Assembly: GCF_003473485.1 (NCBI RefSeq)
Contig: NC_053046.1
Span: 32,255,332-32,319,331 of the forward strand
Source: Medicago truncatula
Taxonomy: Eukaryota; Streptophyta; Magnoliopsida; Fabales; Fabaceae
Reading direction: 5' to 3'
Length of the DNA: 64,000 nucleotides
Shown here: in pieces, positions 24,744-51,296 of the stretch
Position numbering within the stretch: the stretch's first letter is position 1
Layout of the letters: each line of letters opens with the position of its first letter
Position numbers and translations under genes: made by a program
Notes under the pieces: model-generated
Seen by the model: the letters and a program-made list of their open reading frames with translations, nothing else
What the model was told of the DNA's origin: nothing
The model's database searches: none

Positions 24744-26547
24744 ATGAATATCTCCGACTCCGGCAACGCCGTATGTCACGTTGTGGCGATGCCATTTCCA
24801 GGAAGAGGACACATCAACCCTATGCTAAGCTTCTGCAAAATCCTAACCTCTCAAAAACCCAACAACCTTCTCATCACTTTCGTACTCACAGAAGAGTGGC
24901 TCACCTTCATCGGCGCCGATCCAAAGCCAGAATCCATCCGCTTTGCCACCATTCCCAACGTTATCCCGCCGGAGCGGGAGAAAGCCGGCGATTTTCCTGG
25001 TTTCTATGAAGCTGTCATGACAAAGATGGAAGCACCGTTTGAGAAGCTTCTTGATCAGCTTGAGTTGCCGGTGGATGTGATTGTTGGTGATGTTGAACTA
25101 AGATGGCCAGTTAATGTTGGTAATCGGAGGAATGTTCCGGTGGCGGCGTTTTGGACTATGTCTGCGTCGTTTTACTCTATGTTGCATCATCTTGATGTGT
25201 TTTCACGAAAACATCACCTAACTGTTGATAAACTGGGTAATTACTCATTTGCAGAAGTAGAACTATGCTTAATATAGAATTATTTGAAACCAACTTATGA
25301 CATGTTTGTCAACTCTTTTCAACTTATTTTCATAAGCTGTCAAAGATAGTCATGAAAACCAGCTCATCATAGTTTATACAAAACCATATTGGTTTTCTTT
25401 TATTATAGAAATAGCTTATTCATAAGTGCTTATATGATGCACACTTATCCTATATGCTGCAAAGTTGTTTATCCAAACAGAGCCTTAGTATTTAATGTGT
25501 TAATACTTAGTATAAGGTTTGTAGTTCATTTTTCTTCTCTTTTTTCTTGGATTAGAAAATTTAGGTTAATAGTTATGGGGCCATACTTTCATGTATTGCA
25601 TATCATCACCAGAAGATTAAAGCAATTGTACATTAGTGCATGTCTGATCTGTGCTGTTTTAAAATGATGTAGATGAACAAGCAGAGAACATCCCAGGAAT
25701 TTCTTCATTTCATATAGAAGACGTTCAAACCGTACTTTGCAAAAACGATCATCAAGTTTTGCAGCTTGCATTGGGATGCATTTCCAAGGTGCCAAAAGCG
25801 AATTATCTTCTTCTCACCACAGTCCAAGAGTTAGAAGCTGAAACCATTGATTCCCTGAAATCTATATTCCCCTTTCCAATCTATCCTATTGGCCCTTCAA
25901 TACCTTATTTAGATATCGAAGAAAAAAATCCAGCCAACACCGATCATAGCCAGGACTATATAAAATGGCTAGATTCACAACCATCTGAATCTGTACTATA
26001 CATTTCATTAGGTAGTTTCCTTTCAGTGTCTAATGCACAAATGGACGAAATCGTTGAAGCACTAAACAATAGCGGAATACGATACCTTTACGTGGCTCGC
26101 GGGGAAACGTCGCGATTAAAAGACAAGTGTGGAGATAAAGGCATGGTGATACCATGGTGTGATCAACTTAAAGTGTTGTCTCATTCTTCTATAGGTGGAT
26201 TTTGGAGCCATTGTGGATGGAATTCAACTTTGGAAACTGTTTTTGCTGGTGTACCAATTTTGACATTCCCTCTTTTCTTGGATCAAGTTCCTAATAGTAC
26301 TCAAATTGTTGATGAATGGAAAAATGGGTGGAAGGTAGAGATACAATCAAAGTTGGAGAGTGATGTGATTCTTGCAAAAGAAGATATAGAAGAGTTGGTT
26401 AAGAGGTTTATGGATCTTGAAAACCAAGAGGGGAAGAAAATTAGAGATAGAGCGAGAGAACTGAAGGTTATGTTTCGTAAAGCGATTGGTAAAGGCGGAT
26501 CTTCAGATAGGAACCTCGACGCATTTATCAGTGACATTTCATCTTGA
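24744..26547 (+). CDS. UGT87A-type UDP-glycosyltransferase (copy A)
   Basis: Model: join(24744..25236, 25673..26547), 455 residues, one phase-1 intron of 436 bp. Family 1 UGTs move a sugar from a UDP-sugar to a small acceptor in the cytosol. The N-terminal lobe has the catalytic His in [12 protein letters not shown] (H23) and the likely partner Asp in VGDVELRW (D116). The PSPG box is residues 326-369: [12 protein letters not shown], then [12 protein letters not shown] with the ribose-binding Glu kept, ending FLDQ. Overall pattern and length fit UGT87A1/A2; Arabidopsis UGT87A2 affects flowering time, but acceptors here are unknown. Exon 2 begins [11 protein letters not shown], matching the Arabidopsis junction, so this copy keeps the ancestral acceptor site. 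Only about 80 bp separates its ATG from a LINE tail, so its promoter differs from those of the later copies. Confidence 0.93.
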
Positions 26548-45008: not shown

Positions 45009-45713
45009 GACTATGTGCAATGGAATGTTGAATTTGCAATTCAACATGTTGAACCATTGTAGGGGGTTGTTGAATTGGGAAAAATATGAGTTGGAGGAGA
45101 GAGGTGTTGAACTAATTCAACATGTTGAAAGCATGGCCCACATAGACACTTGGCATGTTTTGATTGGATGCTTGGATTTTTATCTTTTTAATAATTTGGA
45201 CTCAATTATTTTATTGCAAATAATTTTTATTTTTATTTTTTATTTTACCAAAATTCGTAATTTTTTTTTCTCTATAAATAGAGACTTGGATCATTTGATT
45301 TGGACACAGAAAAAAAATCAAGTTTTTCACTCTCTTAATCTCATTATTAGCTTTATATTAGCTTTTCTTTTGAAGTTTTAGTCTTTATTTGTTGTATTGC
45401 ATTTTATTTATGTTAAGAAAATAAAAATAAATTTTGTTTTTACAAAAAAAATAAAAATTCTTAAGTGTTTCTTCATTTTAATTTAATTATAATCGATAAT
45501 TGTAATTTTATGTAATTATAAAAACAAAAATATAAAATTAAATAAGAATAAGAAATAAAAGGTGGTGGGGTAGGATGTTGAATGAAAAAACCATTGGAAA
45601 GGTAAAAATTGAATGGGTGTTAAATTAAGAGAGAGAAAATGATGTGAAGTGTTGAGAATTGAAAAAGTGGGTGTTATAAGGTTGTTGAATGTATTTTACC
45701 ATTGTAAATGGTC
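45009..45713 (+). mobile_element. Internally deleted PIF/Harbinger element (705 bp)
   Basis: Ends GACTATGTGCAATGG and CCATTGTAAATGGTC are inverted and flanked by TAA (45006-45008 and 45714-45716). Both ends match the full element at 48577-51170: the promoter part CTCTATAAATAGAGACTTGG with TTGATTTGGACACAGAAAAA, and the 3' part TTGTTGTATTGCATTTTA through TAATTATAATCGATAATT to GGTGGTGGGGTAGG. About 1.78 kb of the full element, from roughly 49060 to 50838 and including the whole transposase frame, is absent. It is a textbook step from autonomous element to MITE. A 126-codon frame at 45001-45381 is chance. Confidence 0.93.
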
Positions 45714-45716
45714 TAA

Positions 45717-46591
45717 ATTCGACTGTTCAGGCGATTGAGATGTCATTGCTTACATCTTGTAGGAGAAACTATCAGGCTAGTTAGTTACATGCAATTGGTC
45801 TTCCACCCATTCACATATTTTAGACAATGTAAACTTTTAATCAACATGAGACGATTTAGCTTCGAGCTTGATATTTAAAATTGTAAAATAAAAATAAAAA
45901 ATTATTTTTGTTGGGCTATCCAAACTTAATAAAACAATCACAATGTCCAAGATGTGTGATCATGTGACGTATGGATCCAATTTAACTTTTCAGGCTACCA
46001 CAATAATTGTGAATCGTGATCACACATGTAGATGTGTTAGTTGGATTTCATATTACTTTTGTCGGGTGCAATATACGAAGTATGGATACATATACGAATG
46101 CTACTAACACATCAAAACTGTTAATAATTTAAAAAAAATCAATCATATAATTTAACGTAATTATACAAACCAGTATTGTGTCATGTCAGATGTAATACAG
46201 AAAAGAGTTATGATACATAAACATCCTTAGGTGACAATACATTCTTCCACACCCACACAAAAATCTGACACGTAGTCACGTGGATCCCGCACAAGCACAC
46301 TTTCTATTTCCTCTTCTCTTCTCTCTTCCTAGTGCATGGGGTGTACAAAGGTGTATGAGAATAAAGGGTGTCTATGTAACATTTTCCTACGGAAAAAGTG
46401 TCTATGCTTCCTAGCTTCATAGTTATAAGACCTTTTGAAGGTACACTTTTACGTTGTTACTCTAGATGGTAAATTCCTTCACTATTACTCAACAATAAAA
46501 TAGTATAATTTTGTCCTTTCTATTCATTTCATACACTTTACATAGACACTTATACTCCAAAATACTCAACATTAACATCACCATCTCCTCC
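45717..46591. other. Upstream region of UGT copy G
   Basis: No gene. Contains the likely promoter of copy G. It is not homologous to the duplicated promoters of copies B, D and E. Confidence 0.55.
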
Positions 46592-48113
46592 ATGGAACCT
46601 CCAAATCCACCTCCACCTCCACCAACCACCACCAGCACCACCCACATAGTAGCCGTACCATACCCAGGTCGAGGCCACATCAACCCAATGATGAACCTAT
46701 GCAAACTCCTCATCTCCAACAACCCCAACATCGTTGTTACCTTTGTTGTCACAGAAGAATGGCTCACCATCATCAACTCCGACTCACCAAAACCAAACAA
46801 CAAAAACATCAAATTTGCCACCATTCCAAACGTAATTCCCTCCGAAGAAGGTCGAGGAAAAGATTTTCTTAATTTTCTCGAAGCTGTTGTGACCAAAATG
46901 GAAGACCCGTTTGAGAAACTACTTGATTCACTTGAGACAGCACCGAATGTGATTATACATGATAGTTATTTGTTTTGGGTTATAAGAGTTGCCAATAAGA
47001 GAAATGTTCCTGTTGCGTCGTTTTGGCCTATGTCGGCGTCGTTTTTTCTTGTTCTTAAACATTATCGTCGTTTGGAGGAACATGGTCATTACCCGGTAAA
47101 TGCTTCAGGTTAGTTACTTTCTTTTTTTTTTTTTTACTAAATTTAAGGTACTTTTCTTTTATTCCTTTATAAACATTTCAAGTGTTTTGTGTGTTGTTTA
47201 AATTGTTGCAACAGAAGTTGGTGACAAACGTGTGGATTACATTCCGGGGAACTCATCAATTCGTCTCCAAGATTTTCCACTTCATGATGCAAGCTTACGC
47301 AGCCGTAGATTGTTAGAGTTAGCTTTGAATAACATGCCATGGATGAAGAAAGCACAATATCTATTATTCCCTTCCATATATGAAATTGAGCCTCAAGCAA
47401 TTGATGTTTTAAGAGAAGAATTTTCTATACCAATTTACACAATTGGACCTACCATACCTTATTTTAGTCACAACCAAATTGCCTCTCTAAGCACCAATCA
47501 AGATGTTGAACTTGATTATATAAATTGGCTAGATAATCAACCCATTGGTTCTGTTCTATATGTCTCACAAGGGAGTTTTCTTACAGTTTCAAGCGAACAG
47601 ATCGATGAAATTGCGAATGGTTTGTGCGAAAGTGGTGTTAGATTCTTGTGGATAATGCGAGGAGAAAGTTCTAAGTGGAAAGATATTTGTGGGGAAAAAG
47701 GGTTTGTTTTGCCATGGTGTGACCAATTGAGAGTGTTGATGCATAGTGCTATAGGTGGTTTTTGGTCACATTGTGGGTGGAATTCAACTAGAGAAGGTTT
47801 GTTTTGTGGTGTGCCTTTTCTTACATCTCCAATAATGATGGATCAACCTTTGAATAGTAAGTATATAGTTGAGGATTGGAAGGTTGGGTGGAGAGTGGAA
47901 AAGAAGGTTAAAGATGATGTTTTGATAAGAAGAGATGAAATTGCTAGGCTTGTTAGAAGATTTATGGATTTGGGTGATGATGAAGTGAAGGAAATGAGGA
48001 AAAGAGCAAGAGAGCTTCAACAAATATGCCAAAGTGCTATTGCAAGTGGAGGGTCATCCGAAAATAATATGAAAGCCTTTCTTGGTAATATATTACATGG
48101 ATCCAAACAATAG
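46592..48113 (+). CDS. UGT87A-type UDP-glycosyltransferase (copy G, divergent)
   Basis: Model: join(46592..47108, 47215..48113), 471 residues, phase-1 intron of 106 bp, the shortest in the array. The ATG before MEPPNPPPPPP is chosen by comparison with other copies; an earlier in-frame ATG at 46511 would add 27 residues of no family likeness. A proline run precedes the core. Catalytic His29 (GRGHINPMM) and Asp124 (IIHDSYLFW) are present. PSPG, residues 340-383, reads WCDQLRVLMHSA, NSTREGL and MMDQ, with the donor Glu kept. Exon 2 begins EVGDKRVDYIPGNS, the long ancestral junction form. It is the intact relative of pseudogene F and probably near the ancestral state of the array. It lies between two PIF/Harbinger relatives. 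Confidence 0.93.
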
Positions 48114-48573: not shown

Positions 48574-48576
48574 TAA

Positions 48577-51170
48577 GACCATATGCAATGGCCAATTTAA
48601 TGAAGCATTCAACACCAATTTCCTTTGCAATGGTGTGTTTTATGTGTGTTGAATGAGGGAAGAGAAGAGAGAGAAGGTGAATCCATTAAACACAATTTAA
48701 ATCTGCCCGGCCGGACACGTGGCGACGCGTGATTGGGAAAAAATTGGCGCGTGCGTTACACGCGCAGACAAGGCGCGTGACGCGTCAGACGTGCGGAGAG
48801 AGAAAGATTTTTTGGATAGATAGTGACACGTGGCACGTTTTAATTGGCTGTCCGGATTCTTATCATTTTAATAATTTGACCTCAATTATTTCGTTGTAAA
48901 TTAATTTAAAAAAAAAAAAAATTACCAAAATTCATGATTTTTTTTCCTCTATAAATAGAGACTTGGATCATTTGATTTGGACACAGAAAAAAAAACCAAA
49001 TTTTTCACTATCTTCATCTTATTATTATCTTTCTATTAGCAAACTAAGTGAAGTTTTAATCTTATTTTTTGTGAAATGGATCCCAATAATAACCATTTCA
49101 ACACCCAAAATTTTTCTAATTACCCATATAACTACGAAAATCCCAACAATTATCCAAATCCAAATCAATTTTATAACCAACGTCCTCAAAACATACATCA
49201 AAACGTACCTAATTTTGGTTTTTCACCAAATTTCAACCAGTCATCCTCTGTTCCAAACTTTCATCCATATTATGGATCTATGATGAGATATCCATCTCAA
49301 ACACCCCCGTTTAATGGTTATATGCCAATGGGGAATGAAAATTTTCCTAGTGTTGATGCAAACCAATATCCTGAATTTTCAACACAAATAACTCCTGGTG
49401 GCATGGCAGTTGCTGATGAAGTCACTCCAGAAGATTCAACTCCTAAGAGCAAGAGAAGTAAGGAACCAGCATGGAACACTCAACAAAATTTGGTTCTAAT
49501 TAGTGCATGGATTAAATATGGAACAAGCAGTGTTGTCGGGAGAAACCAGAGAGGAGAAACATATTGGGGTAAAATTGCTGAGTATTGTAATGAGTATTGC
49601 TCATTCGATTCTCCCCGCGATCTAGTTGCCTGCCGAAACCGTTTTAATTATATGAGCAAAATAATAAATAAATGGATTGGTGCTTATGAAAGCGCTAAGC
49701 GTATGCAAAAACATGTCTTCCTTCGAATCGTTGGAGACCTTTCAAGTAGTGATAACTACTTCACCCAGCGAGTTGATGCCGCCAACAAAGAAGGTATATC
49801 ACCGTTAGCAAAATGTACCACAGCAATGCGAATGTTAGCATATGGTGTGGCAGCAGATGCGGTAGATGAATACATAAAAATAGGAGGTACTACAGCATTG
49901 GAGTGCTTACGTAGATTCTGTAAAGGAATCATACGACTGTATGAGCAAGTGTATCTGAGAGCACCAACCCAAGATGACCTTCAAAGAATACTACATGTTA
50001 GTGAAATGCGGGGGTTCCCAGGGATGATCGGGAGTATTGACTGCATGCACTGGGAGTGGAAAAATTGTCCTAAAGCATGGGAAGGTCAATTCACCAGGGG
50101 GGATAAGGGAACCACCACAGTTATTCTTGAAGCAGTTGCATCTCATGATCTATGGATCTGGCATGCCTTTTTTGGATGTCCGGGAACGTTGAACGATATA
50201 AACGTTCTAGACCGGTCACCAGTGTTCGATGATGTGGAACAGGGAAAGACTCCAAGGGTGAATTACTTTGTGAATCAACGTCCATATAATATGACATACT
50301 ATCTAGCTGATGGTATCTACCCTTCTTACCCAACTTTCGTCAAATCAATTAGGCTTCCTCAAAGTGAACCCGATAAGTTATTTGCAAAACATCAAGAGAG
50401 CTGTCGGAAGGACATCGAACGTGCTTTTGGAGTGCTTCAAGCTCGATTTAAAATCATCCGTGAACCAGCTCGCTTGTGGGACATAGCTGATTTGGGTATA
50501 ATCATGAGGTCATGCATCATATTACATAATATGATTGTTGAGGATGAACGAGATACATATGCTCAACGTTGGACCGATTTTGAGCAATCTGAGGGAAGTG
50601 GATCTAGTACACAGCAACCATACTCGACCGAGGTGTTACCCACTTTTGCAAATCATGTGCGTGCTAGATCCGAGTTGCGTGATCCAAATGTTCATCACGA
50701 ATTGCAAGCAGATCTAGTGAAGCACATATGGACAAAATTTGGAATGTTTCATGATTGAAGATGATTTGTATTGTACTAAATAAATTATTTGTGTGCTTGT
50801 TTGTTGTCTTGCATTTTAAGCTATTTGTGTGTTGTGTGCTTAGTTTGTTGTATTGCATTTTAAGTTAAGAAAATATAAATAAATTATTTAAATAAATTTT
50901 GTTTTTACAAAAAAAAAAATTAAGTGTATCTTTATTTTAATTTAATTATAATCGATAATTTTAATTTTATGTAATTATAAAAACAAAAATATAAATTAAA
51001 TAAAGAATAAGAAATAAAAGGTGGTGGGGTAGGGTGTTGAATGAAAAAACCATTGGAGAGGTAAAAATTGAATGAGTGTTGAATTAAGAGAGAGAAAATG
51101 ATGTGGAGTGTTGGGAATTGAAAAAGTGGGTGTTGAATGATATTATTGTGTTGAACCATTGTACATGGTC
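48577..51170 (+). mobile_element. Apparently complete PIF/Harbinger transposon
   Basis: Inverted ends GACCATATGCAATGG and CCATTGTACATGGTC are flanked by TAA on both sides (48574-48576, 51171-51173). Subterminal sequence repeats AATTCAACACC / GGGTGTTGAATG words, likely transposase sites. A TATA box CTCTATAAATAGAG is at about 48946-48959. One long intact ORF (49076-50758) is inside. Length 2594 bp. Nothing visible rules out activity. A deleted sister is at 45009-45713. Confidence 0.93.
49076..50758 (+). CDS. Harbinger transposase fused to a SANT/Myb-like domain
   Basis: A single 560-residue ORF. Residues 1-130 are Asn/Pro/Tyr/Gln-rich. About 131-211 is a SANT/Myb-like (trihelix) domain of the type normally encoded by the separate ORF1 of PIF/Harbinger elements (AWNTQQNLVLISAWIKYGTS, YWGKIAEYCNEYC, CRNRFNYMSKIINKWIGAYE, SAKRMQ). 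From about 213 the Harbinger transposase begins abruptly (HVFLRIVGDLSSSDNYFTQR, CTTAMRMLAYGVAADAVDEY). Its DDE triad is visible: D322 (GSIDCMHWEW), D412 (YLADGIYP) and E448 (RKDIERAFGVLQARFKI). The usual stretch after SAKRMQ and the usual transposase N-terminus are both missing at the junction, consistent with an in-frame deletion that fused two genes. No stops are present. Start ATG follows the TATA box by about 120 bp. Such proteins act in the nucleus to bind and cut TIRs. Confidence 0.92.
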   Translation: MDPNNNHFNTQNFSNYPYNYENPNNYPNPNQFYNQRPQNIHQNVPNFGFSPNFNQSSSVPNFHPYYGSMMRYPSQTPPFNGYMPMGNENFPSVDANQYPEFSTQITPGGMAVADEVTPEDSTPKSKRSKEPAWNTQQNLVLISAWIKYGTSSVVGRNQRGETYWGKIAEYCNEYCSFDSPRDLVACRNRFNYMSKIINKWIGAYESAKRMQKHVFLRIVGDLSSSDNYFTQRVDAANKEGISPLAKCTTAMRMLAYGVAADAVDEYIKIGGTTALECLRRFCKGIIRLYEQVYLRAPTQDDLQRILHVSEMRGFPGMIGSIDCMHWEWKNCPKAWEGQFTRGDKGTTTVILEAVASHDLWIWHAFFGCPGTLNDINVLDRSPVFDDVEQGKTPRVNYFVNQRPYNMTYYLADGIYPSYPTFVKSIRLPQSEPDKLFAKHQESCRKDIERAFGVLQARFKIIREPARLWDIADLGIIMRSCIILHNMIVEDERDTYAQRWTDFEQSEGSGSSTQQPYSTEVLPTFANHVRARSELRDPNVHHELQADLVKHIWTKFGMFHD

Positions 51171-51296
51171 TAAGAAGGTGGAGATCCCATGTTTAAAATC
51201 GGACGAAGAAGTAAATATTAATCCAACAATAGAGATTAATCATTCGAGATGAGTAAGACCGCAATAGGGACAAAATTTTCTCTCAAGAGATTACAC

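Follow-up and report, generated by a model that had tools for sequence, protein, structure and literature searches.

An internal deletion joins ORF1 and transposase coding in one open frame in a single copy of a Pong-like PIF/Harbinger family of Medicago truncatula

Introduction

In rice, the Pong and Ping elements encode a Myb-like ORF1 protein and a DDE transposase, have 15-bp ends and are flanked by TTA/TAA duplications, as described in the parts of the two reports drawn on here (PMC11254759, PMC2836001). Excision of Ping/Pong in yeast needs both proteins, according to the assays cited from the second of these reports (PMC2836001). For the PIF/Harbinger elements of M. truncatula, the sections cited of one study present internal deletion as the usual origin of non-autonomous elements, and abortive gap repair is the model favoured there by Grzebelus et al. 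(PMC2213677). The Harbinger-like Spy elements of invertebrates, in the portion of their description used here, mostly have one ORF with a DNA-binding motif plus a DDE domain (PMC9179366), so a single Harbinger-like ORF is not unheard of.

Here we analyse an element in a 64,000-nucleotide stretch of M. truncatula DNA (the window), which lies on contig 5 of an assembly of 42 contigs and 429.9 Mb. A preliminary description of this DNA had proposed that a deletion joined the two genes of a PIF/Harbinger element and so made a single-protein transposase.

Results

A Pong-like element with both ends in place

The element is Pong-like and not a generic PIF element. It has a 3-bp TAA/TTA duplication, short terminal inverted repeats, and a Plant_tran/DDE_Tnp_4 transposase with D-D-E residues (Table 1). 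The preliminary description had called its inverted repeats and target-site duplication intact, and we find 15-bp inverted ends with TAA on both sides, GACCATRTRCAATGG being an exact match at the two ends. We take this end sequence to resemble that of mPing. ORF1 precedes the transposase in the window element and in 20 of 20 relatives. The autonomous layout of two separate element-encoded proteins is absent from the window copy and present in all 20 best-scoring relatives, and the window copy is a defective, non-autonomous member of the Pong-like family.

Table 1. Coordinates of the element and its parts in the window
Feature	Position	Strand	Details
Left target-site duplication	48574..48576	.	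TAA
Whole element	48577..51170	+	Internally deleted Pong-like PIF/Harbinger, 2594 bp; aligned to intact relative L009
Left terminal inverted repeat	48577..48591	+	15 bp, GACCATATGCAATGG; relatives have similar ends beside TTA/TAA
Fused ORF	49076..50758	+	560 aa, ATG start, standard code, uninterrupted
ORF1-derived part	49076..49708	+	Residues 1-211; putative Myb/SANT-like region at about 131-199
Deletion junction	49703..49708	+	ATGCAA (Met-Gln), residues 210-211; common to both parent sites
Transposase-derived part	49703..50758	+	Parent residue 76 of 426 onward; D322, D412, E448
Right terminal inverted repeat	51156..51170	-	15 bp, GACCATGTACAATGG
Right target-site duplication	51171..51173	.	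TAA

The nearest copies differ along the element, with L019 closest to the 5' part (98.0%) and L012 and L011 to the 3' part (99.1%); the element may be a mosaic of subfamilies. Elsewhere in the window, positions 45009-45713 hold a MITE-like relative, 705 bp long and of the same Pong-like family, which is flanked by TAA on both sides and too short for both genes; over its 3' 339 bp it is 92% identical to L022. Four same-strand copies of GACTATATAAAATGG, which differs from the element end by two mismatches, start at 25954, 29586, 36557 and 39721. Immediately upstream of the element, at 46511-48113, are two ORFs with the look of a glycosyltransferase, a resemblance that we assume from their WSHCGWNS motif.

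One frame carries parts of both proteins

The claim that a single ORF fuses an ORF1 part to the DDE transposase is borne out by a 560-aa frame with its joint at residues 210-211; the sequence ESAKRMQ begins at residue 205. D322, D412 and E448, which had been said to be kept, are all in place, and we take them to be the catalytic triad. When the whole ORF is searched against Pfam, Plant_tran matches residues 292-495 (E 1.7e-114) and DDE_Tnp_4 residues 321-485 (E 1.1e-10).

The assignment of a Myb/SANT domain is less firm. A scan restricted to the first 212 residues finds Myb_DNA-bind_4 at residues 131-199 (E 9.1e-5; 23.2 bits, under the curated 27). Pfam lists this domain neither for the full 560-aa ORF nor for the intact ORF1 proteins of L009 and L022. 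The Myb/SANT label for this part is thus a tentative one, suggested by a weak profile match and family knowledge. A single-sequence structure model of residues 121-212 has three helices at a mean pLDDT of 74.3, with three of the five models near 53. Of the 43 PDB matches to the modelled fold with E up to 10, none had an E of 0.001 or less, the top match being a TEA domain (E 1.6), and a PDB sequence search gave a single, irrelevant match (E 1.4).

What is kept would suit a working single-chain transposase, in which the SANT-like region would bind the element ends and the DDE domain, tethered to it, would cut, so that no separate contact between ORF1 protein and transposase would be needed. Both the SANT-like region and the D-D-E residues are retained, and the third predicted helix of the SANT-like region extends to residue 210, the junction, in the single-sequence model and with modest confidence. 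In the experiments cited from work on Pong, excision was seen with every one of 12 constructs in which Cas9 was fused to ORF1 or ORF2, with both proteins present (PMC11254759).

The joint lies in a sequence shared by both genes and occurs once

The proposed deletion is well supported by comparison with L009, relative to which 1241 bp are missing from the window element by alignment coordinates. The parent sites read CGT ATG CAA GGA in ORF1 and CGG ATG CAA AAA in the transposase gene, and the window reads CGT ATG CAA AAA. ATGCAA encodes Met-Gln in both parent genes, and the fused frame is in register because these six bases sit in the same codon register at both sites. Among L009-L028 the two parent sites lie about 1.07 to 1.54 kb apart, a distance that varies, and in several other copies the spacer between ORF1 and the transposase contains repeated blocks.

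A 47-base pattern across the junction has one match in the 429.9-Mb, 42-contig assembly at up to 3 mismatches, which is the window itself, whereas the unrearranged transposase-side pattern of equal length and tolerance has 64 matches in the same assembly. We therefore reject the possibility that the junction is common to several copies in this assembly. An exact match to it is likewise absent from 48 of 49 family loci, the sole match being the window copy (L001). With this single match and with two ORFs in each of the 20 best-scoring relatives, the description of this locus as a single-protein transposase is not supported, and the lack of a second copy in the assembly counts against a working single-chain protein.

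The joint might instead be an artefact, either an assembly error or a mis-read intron, a reading to which we give a nearly negligible probability. The family is repeated, and assemblies can err in such families, but the joint coincides with a short sequence that the two parent sites share, which is what a real deletion would leave. The mis-read intron, which had been raised as an alternative, is rejected: the ORF1 and transposase frames of the relatives are contiguous and readable without an intron, and the extra DNA between them is missing in the window.

Relatives carry two separate genes

We searched the assembly at the protein level and obtained at least 86 matches, with 78 of 550 candidates scored; among the matches listed, only the window copy matches residues 1-560 in one piece. 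We opened 41 other loci, comprising the 20 best-scoring after the window (L009-L028), 20 more that were picked partly for an incomplete look or a listed ORF1 match and are not a random sample (L029-L048, of which L047 and L048 are more distant relatives, at 57%), and L049. In the relatives, ORF1 (about 370-400 aa) is followed by the transposase (426 aa) in separate intronless frames. All 20 of L009-L028 have ORF1 and transposase as separate ORFs, in keeping with the statement that the two genes are normally separate, and in 16 of them both reach full size, taken as 368 aa or more for ORF1 and 426 aa or more for the transposase. No ORF spans both genes in L009-L028 (ORFs of at least 120 aa, read in three frames on the oriented strand) or in L029-L048 (ORFs of at least 150 aa). 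The search had listed open frames of 933, 982, 1000 and 860 aa in four relatives as candidate natural full-length fusions; these are rejected, since L013, L014 and L019 have two separate ORFs and L032 has separate pieces.

The preliminary description had held that a junction unique to this copy, with relatives that all carry two separate ORFs, would make the fusion a chance deletion. The first part stands, and the second meets one exception among the 41 relatives, L049. This comes close to the result so described, and by that measure the bolder reading fails.

In eleven of the 20 best-scoring relatives, both ends were recognised and the TTA or TAA beside them is identical, and in the other nine the end pattern was missed at one end (seven) or both (two). 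We infer that the Pong-like family was recently active, because of these matching TTA/TAA ends and because the transposase parts of these copies are 96-99% identical to that of the window.

Other deletions also join the two genes

At five of the 41 other loci, ORF1 coding is joined by deletion to the transposase or its leader, with breakpoints that are all unlike the window's. Four of these (L031, L040, L041 and L042) join ORF1 coding to transposase coding and have no open fused ORF; in L031 the joined parts share one frame, which a stop codon interrupts at the joint. An independent open fused ORF of 538 aa, with other breakpoints, is present in L049 (L049 979-2595), made of about 50 residues of the ORF1 N-terminus, a read-through leader and the complete 426-aa transposase, without the SANT region.

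Counting the window, three of six deletions are seemingly in one frame and two of six are open, where the frame calls come from listed ORFs and L040, L041 and L042 could carry later indels. These proportions are close to the one-in-three expected by chance. Internal deletions that start outside ORF1 coding (L029, L030 and L034) were left out of the six.

The fused protein lacks a part of ORF1 that is constrained in most comparisons

Two segments are missing from the fused protein: transposase residues 1-75, and ORF1 residues 212-373, in which a charged tail and a stretch of basic residues are visible by eye. We compared dN/dS between L009 and other copies, in pairs that all share this one sequence and are not independent. 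For the lost ORF1 part, the values are 0.37, 0.41, 0.39 and 0.28 against L022, L025, L026 and L046, and 1.17, on six changes, against the close copy L012; for the SANT region, they are 0.30, 0.30, 0.30, 0.12 and 0.48 against L022, L025, L026, L046 and L012. Judged from these values, the ORF1 C-terminus is under constraint in four of five comparisons. For the lost transposase part, the values are 1.18, 1.31, 0.72, 0.53 and 0.62 against L023, L025, L026, L046 and L045 and undefined against L012, whereas those for the kept part are 0-0.24. The transposase N-terminus is thus loosely constrained, so that its loss might be tolerable.

Identity to L047 and L048, the more distant relatives, is 34-36% over the lost transposase part and 57-58% over the kept one, and 27-28% over the lost ORF1 part and 26-28% over the SANT region. 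All four transposases aligned have in common a block of the form DYF...P.[YF].D..FR.RYRM, which directly precedes the junction within the lost transposase part.

These losses bear directly on the single-chain reading, which we regard as highly unlikely. The missing ORF1 C-terminus is constrained in four of the five comparisons above, and the missing block is shared even with relatives that are 57-58% identical in the kept part. Moreover, neither Ping ORF1 alone nor the transposase alone gave excision in the yeast experiments cited (PMC2836001).

The same combination of kept and lost parts could suit a repressor or poison subunit, which would bind the ends through the predicted SANT-like region and form no proper complex with intact partners. 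The SANT-like region is retained while other parts of both proteins are gone, and the DNA upstream of ORF1 is retained in the window element. Repressing deleted copies are known in other transposon families. However, the copy is single in the assembly, and such a role would be distinctly improbable.

The fused frame has few differences from its nearest copies: one nonsynonymous and one synonymous against L019 in the ORF1 part, and none nonsynonymous and two synonymous against L011 in the transposase part. With so few differences, decay has not yet set in; the changes are too few for a judgement of selection on the fused frame.

Discussion

Taken together, these observations make it very probable that the fused frame arose in a single copy of this Pong-like family by a chance internal deletion, through short homology. 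The loss of 1241 bp would have been microhomology-mediated or the product of abortive gap repair. Because the copy retains both ends, it could be mobilised in trans by intact siblings, while the fused protein, without ORF1 residues 212-373 and transposase residues 1-75, would most likely do nothing useful alone. Several observations count against a chance deletion: the open frame holds a whole SANT-like region and a whole DDE domain and differs little from the nearest copies, the lost transposase N-terminus is loosely constrained, the lost ORF1 part gave 1.17 in one of five comparisons, and open fused frames have arisen more than once, as L049 illustrates.

Conversely, it is unlikely that the deletion created, in one step via the same-register repeat, a new Pong transposase that acts as a single chain, or a repressor that binds the ends. 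Because both genes carry the repeat in the same codon register, the Pong-like family may be predisposed to such fusions. An active fused protein would be a test of whether Pong-type elements need two proteins solely to bring DNA binding and catalysis together. As a chance deletion, the window copy is an ordinary deletion derivative, and a neat case of how a two-gene transposon can become a fused frame in one step.

A search of one library of openly licensed papers found no natural ORF1-transposase fusion in a plant Pong-like element, which says little. Rice Pong and Ping, with a Myb-like ORF1, a DDE transposase, 15-bp ends and TTA/TAA duplications, are close to the family described here, whose intact members have ORF1 upstream of a Plant_tran transposase. 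In contrast, the window copy has its two genes truncated and joined by deletion, among genomic relatives that are two-gene. It also resembles the MtPH derivatives of M. truncatula, which are likewise non-autonomous by internal deletion, ascribed to abortive gap repair in the sections cited (PMC2213677). However, that study is limited, in those same sections, to PIF-type and not Pong-type ends (PMC2213677), and the window copy keeps an open fused frame. Spy is, as far as the cited portion describes it, a lineage with a helix-turn-helix in its transposase (PMC9179366), whereas the window ORF consists of two Pong-like genes joined together and found once. No Spy-like lineage of copies with a common single-ORF layout is seen here, where the junction occurs once in the genome; the window copy belongs not to the Spy type but to a Pong-like family, of which it is a defective member.
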